Source of the DNA: an uncultured Selenomonadaceae bacterium
Lineage (GTDB): Bacteria > Bacillota > Negativicutes > Selenomonadales > Selenomonadaceae
NCBI GenBank assembly: GCA_902777615.1
Contig: CACYUQ010000002.1
Span: 1-32,062 of the forward strand
Direction of reading: 5' to 3'
DNA: 32,062 nt
Part shown: positions 10,031 through 32,062 of the stretch, one piece after another
Layout of the letters: each line of letters begins with the position of its first letter
Numbering within the stretch: position 1 is the first letter of the stretch
Translations under genes and position numbers: made by a program
The notes under the pieces: model-generated
Database searches by the model: none
Seen by the model: the letters and a program-made list of their open reading frames with translations, nothing else
Told to the model about the DNA's origin: nothing

Positions 10031-10067
10031 CAAAAAAGCTGGCAGCTTCGGCTGTCAGCTTTTTTTA
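10031..10067 (+). terminator. Terminator with cUUCGg tetraloop, bidirectional
   Basis: 10-bp stem AGCTGGCAGC (10037-10046)/GCTGTCAGCT (10051-10060), with loop TTCG and A- and T-runs on the two sides. It ends the AGCS gene and the convergent restriction gene. Confidence 0.9.
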
Positions 10068-10070
10068 TGC

Positions 10071-10973
10071 TTATCCAAGCATTTTCCACATATCTTCAAC
10101 CAGGAACTTATCAAATTTGAAAATGTGCTTTGATAAATCCACGTCTTCTAGCATTATGGGACGCGGATCAAAATAATAAACACCGTCAAGAGGAGCCAAG
10201 GCCATAGTATATGCCTTAAAATGCCCAGGAAGAAACGTGGAATTGATGGAATAATTTCCATCCTTTTTAGATGCGCGTTGCACGTCGTTCAAGAATATAG
10301 CAAAATGAGGTATGTCTGTTTTCGTTAGCTTTTTGTACATATATTTATCAAGGAATATTTTATCTAACCGATCTTTTGAAGAAGTTTTTAACTGTCCTAT
10401 TCCAGCAACAGAGTCATCTTCACGTATTAAGATAACATCATGCTGAAATTTCATTTCTTTCCCACGCCCTTTTGGAATTTTGACTTTTTCATCGCAAGAT
10501 GCGCATGAAACACCCGCGGTAGATATTATATCCCGGATTAGCTTTTCAAAAAGCATACCATTCCGTTTTCTGGCTTTATTGGGATTATTGAATGAGTCCA
10601 ATGTACATCCGATGGATTGTTGGCAAGTGTAGATTACGCGATTTATATTGTTTCGCAAGACAATATTGTTGCATATAGATTTAGGATCGGATATGCTCTT
10701 CTTAAACTCAACAATAGCATTTCCAAATTCTTCTGCCGTCATAAATATTTCCATATTTATTGGCCTAGTAATACAATTTCTTCCATCATCTTTATACTGG
10801 AAAAAATGATATTTAGGTTCTTTACAAGAAACAATATCTGCTTGTATGTGGGGATGTATCATTTTTCCTGCATCTATGAAATGGAGGTATTCCTTGGTAA
10901 AGTCTATAAAATCATCATAGCTTGCCAAAGCTGAATCATCATCAACTTTGGATTGAAAATCATACAGTTTCAT
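10071..10973 (-). CDS. Type II restriction endonuclease (PD-(D/E)XK type)
   Basis: The 300-aa protein overlaps the end of the DNA methyltransferase gene by ATGA (4 nt), which indicates translational coupling in a restriction-modification operon. A probable PD-(D/E)XK core is visible: E143 in a helix (LFEKLIRDI), D179 in QHDVILI, and Q194-x-K196 in GIGQLKTSS, with Q in place of the second acidic residue as in some nucleases. AAGGAG lies 6 nt before the ATG at 10973. The DNA is clearly more AT-rich than the flanking genes, a sign of transfer. I do not recognise the specificity family. Confidence comes mainly from the operon partner and the core motif. Confidence 0.75.
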   Translation of the reverse strand: MKLYDFQSKVDDDSALASYDDFIDFTKEYLHFIDAGKMIHPHIQADIVSCKEPKYHFFQYKDDGRNCITRPINMEIFMTAEEFGNAIVEFKKSISDPKSICNNIVLRNNINRVIYTCQQSIGCTLDSFNNPNKARKRNGMLFEKLIRDIISTAGVSCASCDEKVKIPKGRGKEMKFQHDVILIREDDSVAGIGQLKTSSKDRLDKIFLDKYMYKKLTKTDIPHFAIFLNDVQRASKKDGNYSINSTFLPGHFKAYTMALAPLDGVYYFDPRPIMLEDVDLSKHIFKFDKFLVEDMWKMLG

Positions 10974-12067
10974 CGTATGCTCCTTCTTCTTATATCATTT
11001 TTTTGATCAAAATCAATCCACGACTCCACATCAAAATTAACAACAGCTTTAATTCGTTTATCCGCCCATGTATTATATTCCTCGTTCATATCATTAACAA
11101 GAAATTTTCTGCCTAACTGTGTACATACAACAGCAGTTGTCCCAGATCCCGAAAAAGGATCCACTACAACTTCATTTACATTCGTACTAGCTAACAATAG
11201 CCTCCGGATTAACTCTTCGGGCTTTTGTGTCGGATGTTTGGTTTTTTCGGCCATTCCATTGCACGTTGTCGGGATATTTATGACATCTTTGGGTTTGGCT
11301 CCGCGCGGATTAGGTTCCCATGTTGAAGATGCTATCTTTTCATTATAAAACTGGCTTGTCTTTCCGCTTTGGTTTCGCGTTGGGTATTTCCGCGTATGAG
11401 CGTTATAAGGAATACGAACATCATCTGTGTTGAATGTAAATGTGTCTGATTTTCTTAAACACAATATACTTTCATGGCTTCTGCCCCAATCATTGCGCAT
11501 ATTTGCTTTATTATCATAGTACCATATCAACCAGTGGCTTTTTTTGAAAAAATCCATAGCTGGCCGTCTAATGTCAGCTAAAATTTCTGTGTATCCACAT
11601 ACATAGAGAGTTCCCGTATCCTTAAGGATTCGGCTTGCTTCCTTAAGCCATGACAACGACCATGCAATGTATTCATCTTGTGAACCAATGTCGTCCCAAT
11701 TGGCTTTCCCGATATTATATGGAGGATCGGCAAATACTGTGTCAACACTTTCATTTTCTATATTTTGCAAGAACTCGATACAATCACAATTGAATATTTT
11801 CCCATTACTATATTCAAACTGCGGTAATAGCGTGGGATTGTACTTATTATTCGCTAATTGGCTATATATAACAGAACAATTATCTTTATGCATGGTTTCG
11901 TTGACAGCCCTAATCACAAATTGGCCTACCGATTCATTCATTGCATCAGCATGTAATTCTATATCAAGTTTTTTCCCTTTTGGAATCCGAACGCGTAATT
12001 GATCGGTATTTGAAGTATATTTCTTATCCGCTCTTCTCTGGGCTTCTGTGTAGCCATTCCTCGACAT
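10970..12067 (-). CDS. RHH-fused adenine/cytosine-N DNA methyltransferase (beta class)
   Basis: The 365-aa protein is a modification enzyme with an extra N-terminal DNA-binding domain. Residues 21-60 (DQLRVRIPKGKKLDIELHA, then ESVGQFVIRAVNETM) fit a ribbon-helix-helix domain of the Arc/CopG type. The methyltransferase follows: DPPY at 114-117 (catalytic motif IV), HPTQKPEELIRRLL near 278-291, and DPFSGSGTT (303-311, AdoMet motif). Motif IV precedes motif I, so it is beta class, making m6A or m4C. The ATG at 12067 has GGAGGTG 6 nt upstream; a GTG at 12076 overlaps it. It overlaps the nuclease gene by 4 nt. The promoter contains a palindrome over the -10, so autorepression by the RHH domain is likely. 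Base composition is AT-rich against the neighbours. Confidence 0.88.
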   Translation of the reverse strand: MSRNGYTEAQRRADKKYTSNTDQLRVRIPKGKKLDIELHADAMNESVGQFVIRAVNETMHKDNCSVIYSQLANNKYNPTLLPQFEYSNGKIFNCDCIEFLQNIENESVDTVFADPPYNIGKANWDDIGSQDEYIAWSLSWLKEASRILKDTGTLYVCGYTEILADIRRPAMDFFKKSHWLIWYYDNKANMRNDWGRSHESILCLRKSDTFTFNTDDVRIPYNAHTRKYPTRNQSGKTSQFYNEKIASSTWEPNPRGAKPKDVINIPTTCNGMAEKTKHPTQKPEELIRRLLLASTNVNEVVVDPFSGSGTTAVVCTQLGRKFLVNDMNEEYNTWADKRIKAVVNFDVESWIDFDQKNDIRRRSIR

Positions 12068-12085
12068 GAACAGCACCTCCCGATG

Positions 12086-12123
12086 TATAGTGCCACTATA
12101 TCATATATGAGTGCGTAAATCAA
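12086..12123 (-). promoter_or_regulatory. Restriction-modification promoter with palindromic operator
   Basis: On the minus strand TTGATT (12118-12123), 17-nt spacer, TATAGT (12095-12100). The 15-bp perfect palindrome TATAGTGCCACTATA (12086-12100) covers the -10 and TCATATATGA (12101-12110) lies in the spacer. A related imperfect dyad, GCGCTATATAGTGC, is at 12189-12202 further upstream. Confidence 0.7.
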
Positions 12124-12213
12124 CATAGCGAAGAGGACAGGATAAAGGCCGCTTGATAAGATTCCGCTGCACCATCGAAAACTACGGGGCGCTATATAGT
12201 GCCGCCTTAGGCA

Positions 12214-12248
12214 TAAAAAAACCGCGCCGTATCAATCACACAGCGCGG
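12214..12248 (-). terminator. Terminator of the bactofilin operon
   Basis: On the minus strand, stem CCGCGC/GCGCGG (12222-12227, 12243-12248) with a 15-nt loop, followed by a T-run (A-run 12214-12221 on the plus strand). Confidence 0.75.
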
Positions 12249-18033: not shown

Positions 18034-19074
18034 TCATGGCTTCGATTCCTCCGCGTTCTCCAGTACAAACCTGTCAAAGTCGGAAACATACTCTTTGTCT
18101 TGTATTACCCGATACTTTTCAAACTCGCTCAAAGCATGAAGTCTCGCAATTTCGGCGGTAACTTTCCCGGCGTCCTTGAGCAAGCCGTATTCAAACATCT
18201 CAATAAAACGATTGAGGCGCGTTTCCCAATCCGCCATGGTGAGGGGGATTTTGCGCTGCGCCATGTCCTCGGCATAGTCGAGGTAGGCTGACACCATGCG
18301 GTTGAGCTGCTTCATTTCCTCCTCGTTCAAATAATTCTTCGCCACAACGACGTCAGATGGCTTGATTTTCCCATTCGGCGCGTCCTGCCAAGTGCTCAGC
18401 CCCATGTGTGGCTTTTCGCTGTCCGCACGGTCTACGATCAGTTCTGCCGCCGTGTGTCCGTGGACGGCGAAGTGCATCTTGTTTTGTACAGTGGCATAAA
18501 AGCGACGAGTGGATTTCGCCGTGCTGTCATAGTCCACCGCCGTGGCGTAAATATCCGTGACCTTTTGGTAAAACTTGCGCTCGCTTGCGCGTATCTCGCG
18601 GATTCTTTCGAGTTGTTCCTCGTAATATTTGTCGGTAAGATACGTTCCGCGCTTCAGCCGCTCATCGTCCATCACCCAGCCCTTGATGGTATATTCCTTG
18701 GCAATATGGTTCACCCATTTGCGGAACTGTACCGCCCGCTCAGAGTTCACCTTGAAGCCCACGGCAATAATCATTTGCAGATTATAATGGGATACGTTGC
18801 GGCGAACTTCTCGTTTCCCCTCCTCTTGAACTATCTCATATTTTCGGATAGTTGCTTCGGGGAGCAATTCGTTGTCCTTGAACACTTTTTGAATATGATG
18901 GTTGATGGTTCGCACATCCATATCGTAGAGCTTAGCCATCGCTTTTTGGGTAAGCCAGATATTCTCTTCCTCGTAACGGAGCTCGACAAAATTTTCTTCG
19001 TTGCCGACGGAAGCAATGTATGTCAAATATTCTGCCGCCCCGGAGCGGATAAGCGATTTCTTTTCTTTTCCCAT
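18034..19074 (-). CDS. rhuM: RhuM-family protein
   Basis: The 346-aa protein matches the RhuM (virulence-associated) family in length and motifs: WLTQKAMAKLYDMDVRTINHHI near residue 40 (a KilA/Bro-like DNA-binding segment), RRNVSHYNLQMIIAVGFKVNSERAVQFRKW near 93-122, and the family core NKMHFAVHGHTAAELI plus GLSTWQDAPNG. The biochemical role is unknown. Members are widespread on mobile and accessory DNA and often linked with restriction systems. GAGGA lies before the ATG at 19074. It stands alone, in opposite orientation, between a LytTR regulator and its kinase, flanked by repeated regulatory sequence, which suggests insertion. Confidence 0.88.
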   Translation of the reverse strand: MGKEKKSLIRSGAAEYLTYIASVGNEENFVELRYEEENIWLTQKAMAKLYDMDVRTINHHIQKVFKDNELLPEATIRKYEIVQEEGKREVRRNVSHYNLQMIIAVGFKVNSERAVQFRKWVNHIAKEYTIKGWVMDDERLKRGTYLTDKYYEEQLERIREIRASERKFYQKVTDIYATAVDYDSTAKSTRRFYATVQNKMHFAVHGHTAAELIVDRADSEKPHMGLSTWQDAPNGKIKPSDVVVAKNYLNEEEMKQLNRMVSAYLDYAEDMAQRKIPLTMADWETRLNRFIEMFEYGLLKDAGKVTAEIARLHALSEFEKYRVIQDKEYVSDFDRFVLENAEESKP

Positions 19075-28473: not shown

Positions 28474-29427
28474 TCAATACAACGCCTTGTCCTTCTCATA
28501 CACCCTATCCCGCGGATTTCCGTTTTCATCAAAACGTTTTTCACCAACCAGCTGCCAGTCTTGGCAACTGCGGCACGGCTCCGGCAAATGCTCCCAATCG
28601 TGATCCAAATGAAGCTGTGCCAATTCGCGACTGTGCCGTGCCCATATTGTTTTGATAGATTCTTCCCGTACATTCCCGAATATTTTTCGTGCCGCACCAT
28701 CCCAACCGCAGGAAACAACATTTCCATCCCACGTGATCGCGCACACACCGATGGCATGGCCGCAAGCATATCGCTCGGACGGTTTCTCTGTCTTGTCCTC
28801 CATCGTCCCCGCCCAATGCCCGGAACGCCTGACTGCCGTCCATGCCCCCTTGCCGCGCCAATAGTCCAAAACCTGCTGCACCTCGGCGTGGTTTTGCGAC
28901 ATATCAATGATTTTTACGTCAATGATTGGCTTCTCCAAACCTCGTTCCTTTTTGCGCCGCAATATGTATTCCACGTTCTGAAAAAACACATCCCGCTTGG
29001 CGCCAACACGGATGGATTCATACACTTCAGCACTAAAGCCGTCGCAATCTGTGCTCAGATAATCCAACCCCGAATCCAAAATCATTTCTGCCATTTCCGG
29101 GCTCAGGAGCGTCCCGTTCGTATTCATGTCCACATTCTGCAATCCCTTTTTCTTCGCGTAGTCAATCATATAGTAGAGCTTGAACCCGGCAAGCAGCGGC
29201 TCCCCGTAAAAATCCAGCCAAATGCGCGTGGACGGGCTTTCCGCCGCCACTTCGTCCACGATCTTCTTGTAAAGGAACATGTCCATATAGCCGCGTTTCC
29301 GTGTGATCGCGTTTTGCGTACACATCACGCAATTCAAATTGCAGAACGCATCCACTTCCACCACCACATTCAGCGGGAATGCTGTGAGCTTGTAATTCTT
29401 TTCCACTTCTTTTATATTCGCGTACAT
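28474..29427 (-). CDS. Radical SAM/SPASM enzyme in a sugar operon
   Basis: This 317-aa radical SAM enzyme has CNLNCVMC (CxxxCxxC, about 29-36) for the catalytic cluster, MNTNGTLLS and STDCDGFSAEVYE in the barrel, and a C-terminal SPASM region with cysteines in YACGHAIGVC, SCGWDG and CRSCQDW for auxiliary Fe-S clusters. SPASM proteins in polysaccharide clusters have been linked to sugar modification, but the substrate here is unknown. AAAGGAGATG stands before the ATG at 29427. It lies 37 nt upstream of wecE and 16 nt downstream of the 547-aa gene. Confidence 0.88.
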   Translation of the reverse strand: MYANIKEVEKNYKLTAFPLNVVVEVDAFCNLNCVMCTQNAITRKRGYMDMFLYKKIVDEVAAESPSTRIWLDFYGEPLLAGFKLYYMIDYAKKKGLQNVDMNTNGTLLSPEMAEMILDSGLDYLSTDCDGFSAEVYESIRVGAKRDVFFQNVEYILRRKKERGLEKPIIDVKIIDMSQNHAEVQQVLDYWRGKGAWTAVRRSGHWAGTMEDKTEKPSERYACGHAIGVCAITWDGNVVSCGWDGAARKIFGNVREESIKTIWARHSRELAQLHLDHDWEHLPEPCRSCQDWQLVGEKRFDENGNPRDRVYEKDKALY

Positions 29428-29443
29428 AGAATCCGCATCTCCT

Positions 29444-31087
29444 TTATGTGTCTCTGGTATCTAAATGGTGCGGCAAATTTCCAATTACCACAGCGTCACT
29501 TTTATCATCCCAAAGAAAGTATATCCGCATACAATGCCGGGCATCCCTTGAATTTCCTTTTTTCAGGTGGTAGTCCATTTTTCTTCGCTTGCCCCGGTAC
29601 ATGAAATAATACGTATCCTTTTCTTCCCCTGCTCTCGTGTCAGTAATCGAACCGCTATATTCCACGCCAATTTGTCGGCACTTGTTTTCAAAATCCTGCC
29701 GCTCGATTGCTCCTTGTCGCATTTGGCGATAGTCGGTTGCCAACAGCTGCAAGCATTTGTAAACCAATTCTATATCCTCAAATTGGGCATCTTTCAAGCC
29801 GCCCAATGCACGTTTGGAAAAAAACAATTCGCCGGGATAATTGCGACTAAACCAATCCGGAATCTCATCATAGGTTGTTCCGAAAGGAACCTCTAAGGAA
29901 GCAGATGTCCCTCCGTTAATATTTTTTCGTTGCCGTAATGAATCAATCAAATATTTCTGCTTTTTGACAACATCGCGCAATTCCTCCAGCTCTTGTACCC
30001 ATTTTTCCTGTTCTTCCAAGCACTGCAATACTTCATTATTTAAGTTTTCAACTTGCTGTTTGTATTGATCAACCTCTTGTGAATACAAATCCGCCAAATC
30101 TGTAGAATTTTGTATAGCATCTTTTTGTTTTTGGAACTGCTCTACATGCGCTACATCCATAAACTTATGACCACAATTTTTCCAATCGACTCTCAGGAGT
30201 GTATTAGCATGCTTGAGTTTTTCTATAAGAAGTTCATGAAAAATATCTTCACCATTATAGGATTTTCCATTTTCATCCGTGAATCCATACGCCAGAATTC
30301 GTTTTACTATCACCAGTGGATGAAGATATTCATTGCCCGGCAAAAAATCGACATTCTTATAGTAGGTTCGAATCGCACCATTGTATGCACCATAATTTGT
30401 TCCAACCATATCAGTCCATTGATAGCACAGTTCTCCGGGGATATGCACAATATGCGCGAAAATCCCGACGGTAGAAAGGAGCAATTCAGGTTTTATCAGC
30501 GGCGCAAGGGTGGTTTCTGCTCCTAAATCATACTTGTAATCGGTAATAACGACTACCGGAAACAATCGCTTAGGATTCACAATAAGGTCGCGCAAATTTT
30601 CCAATTCTTTAGCATTTTCAATACGATAAACGGTTTCGTTCAAATGACGCACATCCGAAAAACCGTTCTTCTTGGCGATGTTAATGACGAACTTCGGTAT
30701 GCTGAATAAATCTTGTGGATAATCAACATTTTTGGGAGTTGTATAGGAAACTTTGACTCCTAAGATTAAATCATCACCACGCTGAATAATTTCGACATCA
30801 GTGATCCATGTGCGCCCAGCCAATTCTCCATCTGGATGTTCCACCAAGCAACAAAAATAATTTCCGTAATCATAAATGATTTGGATGCTATTCCCCGCCG
30901 TATGCTTTGTCATATTCACGGCACTTTTCGGCAACCGCATAGAGGGGAATTTTTCCTTTATCCAGTTATATACAATATTAGCATTGTATATAACTGCACT
31001 TCGCAGATCCTTTTTGACAACCAATTTAGCAGAAAGCTGAAATGCGCGGTTCGTATATTTTTCATCAACGATATATGTTGTTGCCAT
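29444..31087 (-). CDS. Unrecognised 547-aa coiled-coil protein with a possible RelE-like end
   Basis: I do not recognise the family. Residues 1-310 form a globular region; NGAIRTYY with a following HP pair (about 236-257) looks conserved-site-like. Residues about 312-388 are a heptad-rich coiled coil (QVENLNNEVLQCLEEQ). Residues about 395-547 form a basic C-terminal domain ending in HCMRIYFLWDDKSDAVVIG and LPHHL, which recalls the last strands of RelE/HigB-type toxins; this is only a resemblance. No signal peptide is present. The ATG at 31087 has GGGGGA 5 nt upstream, while the frame is open to 31204 inside the previous gene. It lies in a tight sugar operon (25 and 16 nt gaps) but is more AT-rich than the downstream genes. 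It could be a defence or toxin-type cargo gene or a glycan accessory factor. Confidence 0.6.
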   Translation of the reverse strand: MATTYIVDEKYTNRAFQLSAKLVVKKDLRSAVIYNANIVYNWIKEKFPSMRLPKSAVNMTKHTAGNSIQIIYDYGNYFCCLVEHPDGELAGRTWITDVEIIQRGDDLILGVKVSYTTPKNVDYPQDLFSIPKFVINIAKKNGFSDVRHLNETVYRIENAKELENLRDLIVNPKRLFPVVVITDYKYDLGAETTLAPLIKPELLLSTVGIFAHIVHIPGELCYQWTDMVGTNYGAYNGAIRTYYKNVDFLPGNEYLHPLVIVKRILAYGFTDENGKSYNGEDIFHELLIEKLKHANTLLRVDWKNCGHKFMDVAHVEQFQKQKDAIQNSTDLADLYSQEVDQYKQQVENLNNEVLQCLEEQEKWVQELEELRDVVKKQKYLIDSLRQRKNINGGTSASLEVPFGTTYDEIPDWFSRNYPGELFFSKRALGGLKDAQFEDIELVYKCLQLLATDYRQMRQGAIERQDFENKCRQIGVEYSGSITDTRAGEEKDTYYFMYRGKRRKMDYHLKKGNSRDARHCMRIYFLWDDKSDAVVIGNLPHHLDTRDT

Positions 31088-31112
31088 GCTTATCCCCCAT
31101 TTCGCCAACCTC

Positions 31113-31805
31113 TTATCTTCGCCAACCCCAAATATAACAGGGAGCATCTTCTCCCGTATTGAACAATAAATCCAGCACCGAAACTTGGTGGGCAAAGGTT
31201 TCACTCATCTGCGGATATGCCGGATAACCTGAATAATCCTTCCAACCGATTGCAATCCCAGCCTCTTCGTAATCCTCCGCAATGATATAGTCCTTCGCGG
31301 CGGGGCCGGATATATAGACATCCGCCCCTGCCGCTTGCACAAGGCTCAACAGCTTTTCATGCTTTGCGCCATGCGTCGGATAGTCCCGGCTGTCCGCAAA
31401 TTCTGTTTTGATTCCAAGGAACTCATGGGAAATAGTCATTATGAGATAACGATTCAGCTCATATAAATATTCCCATTCCTTTTCCATATAGACGTGAAAG
31501 AAAAAATCCTCGTATTTCTTGAAACATGAGGCACGCCCATAGGCCATGCACAATGTCTGCCAATGCTTTTTTTGCCATGATTTATCCGGCATGGTCACAT
31601 CCAATATTTGCCGATGCTCATTTGTACCCACGGGGATCGTCAGCCATTGCAAGCGGCCATTCACCAAAATTTTATTCCGGTTGCGCCAGTCATTTTTCGT
31701 GTACTGCAAGTCGTCATAAAAAATGAATAAATCCACATCATGGATGATGTCAAAATATCCTTTCCACGGAATGTAGTTGGATTGGAGGACTGCTACTTTT
31801 TTCAT
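31113..31805 (-). CDS. WbqC-like family protein
   Basis: The 230-aa protein matches the WbqC-like family found in O-antigen clusters: KKVAVLQSNYIPWKGYFDII at the start, DLFIFYDDLQYTKNDWRNRN, LTIPVG, and late YISGPAAKDYI plus GYPAYPQ. The reaction is not established; members usually accompany amino-sugar genes, as here (WecE and an acyltransferase). GAAAGG lies 8 nt before the ATG at 31805. It is soluble, with no signal peptide. Confidence 0.9.
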   Translation of the reverse strand: MKKVAVLQSNYIPWKGYFDIIHDVDLFIFYDDLQYTKNDWRNRNKILVNGRLQWLTIPVGTNEHRQILDVTMPDKSWQKKHWQTLCMAYGRASCFKKYEDFFFHVYMEKEWEYLYELNRYLIMTISHEFLGIKTEFADSRDYPTHGAKHEKLLSLVQAAGADVYISGPAAKDYIIAEDYEEAGIAIGWKDYSGYPAYPQMSETFAHQVSVLDLLFNTGEDAPCYIWGWRR

Positions 31806-31859
31806 AGTATGCGGCCTTTCTATTACAAATATAGCTATACAAACTCACAAAAAACTCTT

Positions 31860-32062
31860 TCAAAGATTAACCTGCGTACTAAAGCTGGAAATTTTTATAG
31901 CTTTTGGAGAAGCATACACTTCGCCTAAAGAGGCGACATTAGAATCCATATAACATCCTGCTCCCACCAATGTCTGATCGGCAATTTGAATATGATCTTT
32001 CGTACAGGAGTTATTGCCAAAAAAACACGAATCGCCGATTTGAACTCGCCCGGCAATAGATG
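31860..32062 (-). CDS. Partial hexapeptide-repeat acyltransferase (C-terminal end)
   Basis: An open frame enters from the right edge and stops at 31860. The visible 67 codons read like a left-handed beta-helix acyltransferase: IAGRVQIGDSCFFGNNSC, HIQIADQTLVGAGCYMD, then a tail with VYASPKAIKISS. It resembles NeuD/PglD/WecD-neighbour type sugar O- or N-acyltransferases. The N-terminal part is outside the window. Being first in line before WbqC-like and WecE-like genes, it could acylate the 4-amino sugar. Confidence 0.75.
   Translation of the reverse strand, partial: SIAGRVQIGDSCFFGNNSCTKDHIQIADQTLVGAGCYMDSNVASLGEVYASPKAIKISSFSTQVNL

Follow-up and report, generated by a model that had tools for sequence, protein, structure and literature searches.

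We put the probability at about 0.7 that a type II restriction–modification operon in the window (the whole stretch of 32 062 nt analysed here) was acquired horizontally and that its methyltransferase, which carries a ribbon–helix–helix (RHH) domain at its N terminus, doubles as the repressor of the operon. The two genes occupy 12067–10071 and are read on the minus strand, methyltransferase before nuclease, in the layout of a single operon; the nuclease start codon and the methyltransferase stop codon share a 4-bp overlap (ATGA). The coordinates given for the methyltransferase frame in the original prediction were correct (Table 1). The GC content is 35–38 % inside the 2.1-kb restriction–modification block and about 58 % around it, and similarity to genomes of the same genus ends at about 10028 and 12325, with both neighbour genes kept in those genomes. 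Because similarity stops near its edges, the block appears foreign to them, in agreement with the earlier claim of foreign, AT-rich DNA. A clean empty site was sought in the same-genus genomes and none was found; the two flanking genes are not adjacent there. One flanking gene is presumably bactofilin-like, with a terminator at 12248–12222, and the other presumably amino-acid-carrier-like, with a terminator-like hairpin at 10032–10065.

Table 1. Features of the operon and its promoter region (positions in the window).
Feature	Position	Strand	Basis
RHH–methyltransferase gene, 365 aa	10970..12067	(-)	ORF with PF01555 and phrog_13890 matches; ATG with GGGAGGT ribosome-binding site
N-terminal RHH (Arc-like) domain, residues 1–63	11879..12067	(-)	Arc profile E 5.5e-5; AlphaFold2 pLDDT 87; Foldseek Arc/AmrZ/AtaR; phrog_13890
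Linker, residues 64–83	11819..11878	(-)	most orthologues without similarity before about residue 84
Beta-class N6_N4 methyltransferase domain, residues 84–365	10973..11818	(-)	Pfam PF01555 9e-51; MboIIA 1g60 2.7e-39; 49–60 % identical orthologues
Restriction endonuclease gene, 300 aa, Kpn2I-related	10071..10973	(-)	PADLOC REase_II 1.2e-71; 6ekr E 1.8e-20
-35 hexamer TTGATT	12118..12123	(-)	consensus match only
-10 hexamer TATAGT, extended TG	12095..12100	(-)	consensus match only
Putative operator O1, perfect palindrome TATAGTGCCACTATA over the -10	12086..12100	.	shuffles, half-site count, assembly search
TCATATATGA, palindrome in promoter spacer abutting O1	12101..12110	.	5-bp arms, chance level in shuffles
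Possible auxiliary operator O2, imperfect palindrome GGCGCTATATAGTGCC	12188..12203	.	exact copy of O1 half-site, TATAGTGCC, at 12195–12203; post hoc
Candidate internal nuclease promoter TTGTTA-17-TATAAT	11072..11100	(-)	about 100 nt before nuclease start; such matches equal the shuffled expectation

The original prediction had claimed an RHH domain at the N terminus of the methyltransferase and proposed structure prediction as a check. Pfam and NCBIfam searches returned no named domain in residues 1–84. Residues 1–63 matched the phage family phrog_13890 (E 1.3e-7) and the Arc-like phrog_582 (E 0.012) in PHROGs, and a profile built from the head and 19 viral relatives matched the PDB entries of the Arc repressor (E 5.5e-5), AvtR (8e-5) and AmrZ (6e-4) as well as CopG-type antitoxins; alignment of the head to Arc with hhalign gave a probability of 86 %. 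A joint alignment of the full-length enzyme with stand-alone RHH proteins was misaligned, and the head was therefore modelled alone. In the resulting AlphaFold2 model (pLDDT 87) a non-helical segment (residues 21–31) is followed by helices at 32–42 and 47–62; the RHH strand is unpaired in a monomer model, so that DSSP assigns none, and its place was taken from the alignment. The top Foldseek matches of the model were Arc, AmrZ, AtaR/KacA and CopG-type proteins (TM 0.53–0.62 by query length), with E-values all above 1, as is expected for so small a domain. Residues Q23, R25 and R27 of the head align with Q9, N11 and R13 of Arc, the base-contacting positions of that repressor, and these polar strand residues would fit a two-stranded sheet that enters the major groove as a dimer. 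By its relationship in sequence and by the strand–helix–helix unit of the model, the head is confirmed as a genuine RHH domain.

The catalytic part belongs to the beta class, as had been predicted: residues 108–333 match N6_N4_Mtase (Pfam PF01555) at 9e-51, the nearest solved relative is MboIIA (1g60, 2.7e-39), and the DPPY motif precedes DPFSGSGTT, a motif I of the FxGxG type, which is the beta-class order. The DPPY motif, together with kinship to MboIIA, RsrI and CcrM, suggests N6-adenine as the target base. The second protein matches the PADLOC type II nuclease model REase_II (1.2e-71), and a profile of 22 nuclease orthologues matched PDB entry 6ekr (E 1.8e-20), which bears the record title of a type II site-specific deoxyribonuclease and which we take to be Kpn2I; the invariant K-T-x-S-K-D-R block of the orthologues aligns with K-I-T-T-R-E-R of 6ekr. 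The adjacent cognate nuclease marks the pair as a type II restriction–modification system, and a nuclease homologue adjoins the methyltransferase in most of 80 orthologous loci; the nuclease partner in a plasmid of L. plantarum is 40 % identical. Since the nuclease is related to Kpn2I, a CCGG-containing target is likely; Kpn2I (TCCGGA) belongs to the CCGG family (PMC6344858).

The operon promoter and the perfect palindrome over its -10 hexamer were found exactly where the original prediction had placed them. The promoter (TTGATT-17-TATAGT) agrees with the consensus at 9 of 12 positions, which alone is not above chance in a 2.3-kb scan. The palindrome TATAGTGGCACTATA (arms 7+1+7; O1) reached p=0.015 in shuffles of the 70 bp upstream; a repeat test of wider scope, covering 130 bp, gave p=0.04. 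Searched with up to two mismatches, the 2.1-Mb assembly (a draft, about 92 % complete) yielded no other copy. Three copies of the half-site 9-mer TATAGTGSC, a pattern picked post hoc, are present in the 32-kb window, all in the region of the methyltransferase promoter, against 0.09 expected. The second palindrome that had been predicted, TCATATATGA in the spacer, is at its predicted position, but its arms are no longer than chance. At the level of sequence, the enzyme has the inverted repeat overlapping its own promoter that is looked for in a regulatory methyltransferase. An internal promoter of the nuclease gene is speculative.

Orthologues of the methyltransferase comprised the best 80 of 150 from the genome collection, one from the L. 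plantarum plasmid and one from a viral contig (82 in all); orthologues 49–60 % identical to the window enzyme have nuclease partners of the same family. No RHH head was found among these 82, and in RHH searches of 398 genomes of the phylum, 380 of the class and 391 of the sister class (sets partly overlapping) the window held the only RHH domain on a frame of methyltransferase size; a frame of 896 aa from the same searches gave a marginal RHH match of 35 residues (E 0.009). The fusion is real; the search for further RHH–DPPY fusions that the original prediction had proposed turned up no second one, and the RHH-headed form is a singleton so far. The viral contig (L223, IMG/VR) holds this restriction–modification pair without a head (56 % and 43 % identical), which suggests that the family travels on mobile elements.

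Among the 78 orthologous rows analysed, 54 had no recognised head (termed headless here), with methyltransferase then nuclease as the usual order, and 24 carried a MerR-type head, with the nuclease gene convergent; Pfam matches of up to 2e-11 identified MerR in the three N-termini scanned. The MerR-headed loci are L058, L070, L071, L073, L078, L081, L083–L086, L088–L091, L095, L096, L098, L099 and L101–L106. Because the MerR-headed rows form a clade of their own (support 100/100) and the window methyltransferase groups with the headless rows, on a long branch of uncertain exact position, the two kinds of head were probably gained separately.

The element TTGTNTAA was found within 120 bp of the start in all 24 MerR-headed promoters (shuffles: mean 2.1, maximum 7), about 10–60 nt upstream of the methyltransferase ATG and often just past a Bacteroidota-type TATATTTG box. 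Pairs of the element phased by 10 bp were present in 17 of the 24, against 0.03 in shuffles, by a pair pattern that was fitted after the repeats had been seen and that allowed variants. None of the 54 headless promoters contained the element, many of these being from GC-rich genomes. The MerR-headed rows are of common descent and span four phyla (Bacteroidota, Balneolota, Ignavibacteriota and Calditrichota), and the remainder of their upstream DNA is unconserved by eye. Palindrome scores at the 54 headless and 24 MerR-headed promoters were about those of chance; the MerR signal consists of direct repeats. Taken together, the MerR-headed promoters strongly suggest, on circumstantial grounds, that a head on a methyltransferase of this family is used at its own promoter. 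The clade amounts to many natural replicates and is possibly more fruitful for study than the window itself.

Stand-alone relatives of the RHH head, 60–120 residues long, are mostly phage genes; others were found in genomes of the same phylum. Strong palindromes lie over the -10 region of the free RHH genes L022 (ATATACTACCGGTAGTATAT), L116, L117 and L021. A significant direct or inverted repeat was detected in 15 of 37 RHH promoters of the genome and phage set (window included). Among 22 RHH promoters from viral contigs, direct repeats reached significance in 14; TATATTTGCGCAAGTATA is one example, and the usual form is multiple copies of a TATATTTGCGCAAATATA-like element. Significance was taken per promoter from shuffles at p 0.05, at which about one in 20 passes by chance per test, and related promoters are not independent. 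The 130 bp upstream of the phage RHH genes at L137–L163 contain multiple TATATTTGCGCAAATATA-like elements as an iteron-like operator array, the sequence of which varies among relatives.

By analogy with these systems, the most likely use of the head is negative autoregulation by an RHH–methyltransferase dimer that lies over the -10 hexamer and excludes RNA polymerase. Two heads would pair into an Arc-like DNA-binding dimer, which would occupy O1, possibly with help from O2 some 100 bp farther upstream, so as to keep the polymerase off. When a restriction–modification system enters a new cell, protection must precede attack: in an unprotected cell the promoter would be free and the methyltransferase made fast, and as the enzyme accumulated its own transcription would be lowered to a steady level, with compensation for gene copy number. 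The nuclease would come after it, as the second product translated from the shared mRNA, with a weak internal promoter perhaps adding to its supply. The head most likely originated from a phage-type RHH autorepressor gene, which would have been captured by in-frame fusion to a methyltransferase, most relatives of which are headless.

In kind the original interpretation is largely borne out: as a proposal, its self-repression has good support by analogy, from the stand-alone RHH promoters and the MerR-headed clade. The role in timing that was claimed with it is weaker than stated. The nuclease lies in the same operon, with its gene overlapping by 4 bp, and repression alone would therefore not delay it; because the two genes share the operon, both would be lowered unless the nuclease has an internal promoter.

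Points against autoregulation are the modest significance of O1 by itself, the finding of no second RHH–methyltransferase fusion whose operator could be compared, the presence of promoter repeats at only part of the stand-alone relatives (15/37), the shared operon, in which repression alone would not delay the nuclease, and a uniqueness count that comes from a draft assembly, not a whole genome. The head might instead mainly serve the enzyme through dimerisation or extra affinity for the target DNA, the palindrome being a coincidence of an AT-rich -10 region. Many beta-class methyltransferases act as dimers, which an RHH pair would enforce, and the p values of the palindrome are just 0.015–0.04. 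Yet orthologues that are 49–60 % identical and have the same nuclease family do without a head, every promoter of the MerR-headed sister architecture holds a conserved element, and no other copy of the palindrome was found in the assembly; we consider such a mainly enzymatic role unlikely. Still less probable is a palindrome that serves some other repressor, of host or phage, as its operator, with the RHH head binding elsewhere. The operator-like repeats of the stand-alone RHH family are very diverse, so that a sequence by itself names no binder, and the 44 viral contigs in which the exact O1 palindrome was found hold no RHH gene of the head's family in the stretch examined. The palindrome sits, however, at a gene that encodes a repressor-type domain, and a search of the assembly allowing two mismatches found it nowhere else, which gives no sign of a regulon under another factor. 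We give very little credence to the head being a functionless leftover of a fused phage gene: its status as a singleton in a family whose other members have no RHH head would agree with this, but the canonical residues Q23, R25 and R27 are kept on Arc Q9, N11 and R13, the helices agree with the RHH family consensus and the frame is intact.

Negative autoregulation by the head would have precedents in the regulatory methyltransferases. In M.SsoII, a regulatory head of 71 residues acts as repressor of the enzyme's own gene and has a 15-bp quasi-palindrome as its binding site (PMC3978073), and reviews describe the class with helix–turn–helix (HTH) heads only (PMC12707154, PMC3874152). M.SsoII, M.Ecl18kI and M.EcoRII share with the window enzyme an N-terminal DNA-binding head of ∼70 residues and a 15-bp (quasi)palindrome at their own promoter (PMC3978073, PMC12707154, PMC3874152); negative feedback is shown for these three and would be expected for the window enzyme. 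They differ from it in having an HTH head on a C5-cytosine enzyme, in place of an RHH head on a beta-class DPPY enzyme (N6-adenine type), and SsoII and Ecl18kI have divergent promoters where the window has a single co-directional operon. The window enzyme has an N-terminal DNA-binding domain, as enzymes of the SsoII/Ecl18kI type do, without the HTH-on-C5-cytosine combination and, because head and catalytic class both differ, lies outside that class in its strict sense. The control design, originally predicted to be unusual, is thus known in principle, as self-repressing methyltransferases with an N-terminal DNA-binding domain have been described (PMC3978073, PMC12707154); it is the pair of domains that differs.

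Arc/CopG-type RHH autorepressors, including phrog_13890 and phrog_582, have the same strand–helix–helix unit and a palindrome or repeats over their own promoter, but are free proteins of 60–90 residues, whereas the putative repressor in the window forms the N-terminal part of an enzyme that modifies DNA. The MerR-headed methyltransferases have in common with it the methyltransferase/nuclease family, an N-terminal DNA-binding head and promoter repeats; they differ in the type of head, in tandem direct repeats phased by 10 bp instead of a palindrome, in the convergent nuclease and in forming a single separate clade. The Kpn2I system (TCCGGA), with its related nuclease (E 1.8e-20), uses a separate controller (C) protein (PMC6237814), whereas the window operon is without a separate controller gene. 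No description of an RHH- or MerR-headed methyltransferase autorepressor was found in the literature searched, most subscription journals and REBASE lying outside the search.

We consider it rather probable that this family independently acquired unrelated repressor heads, MerR in one clade and a phage-type RHH on a different branch, and that each head has an operator of its own. If so, autorepressing methyltransferases would be built from an enzyme and a ready-made module of repressor plus promoter, the control head would prove a swappable part, and such enzymes would not be limited to C5 methyltransferases with HTH heads. Few solutions to the problem of establishment are known (free controller proteins, promoter methylation, antisense RNA and HTH-headed C5 enzymes). 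Through an Arc-like head on a beta-class enzyme, together with a MerR sister clade with conserved operators, the regulatory methyltransferases would come to include further types of enzyme and of DNA-binding fold.

Further fusions and regions were noted. At L112, an ORF starting at 1483 joins the same RHH family to an apparent minimal nucleotidyltransferase (GSRARGDYRADSDFDF), an antitoxin-type domain, and at L145 an ORF starting at about 1713 has an RHH domain downstream of an HNH/AP2-like phage segment (YGGRGI...CDEW...LTIDRID) in one open frame. Within the window, the minus-strand gene at 18034–19074, which presumably encodes a RhuM-family-like protein, lies in a stretch of locally lower GC content and is possibly a second acquired gene. 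Across the gene set at 29000–32062 the GC content falls to 38–46 %; we take these genes to include radical-SAM-like and WbqC-like proteins, perhaps of a surface-polysaccharide region.
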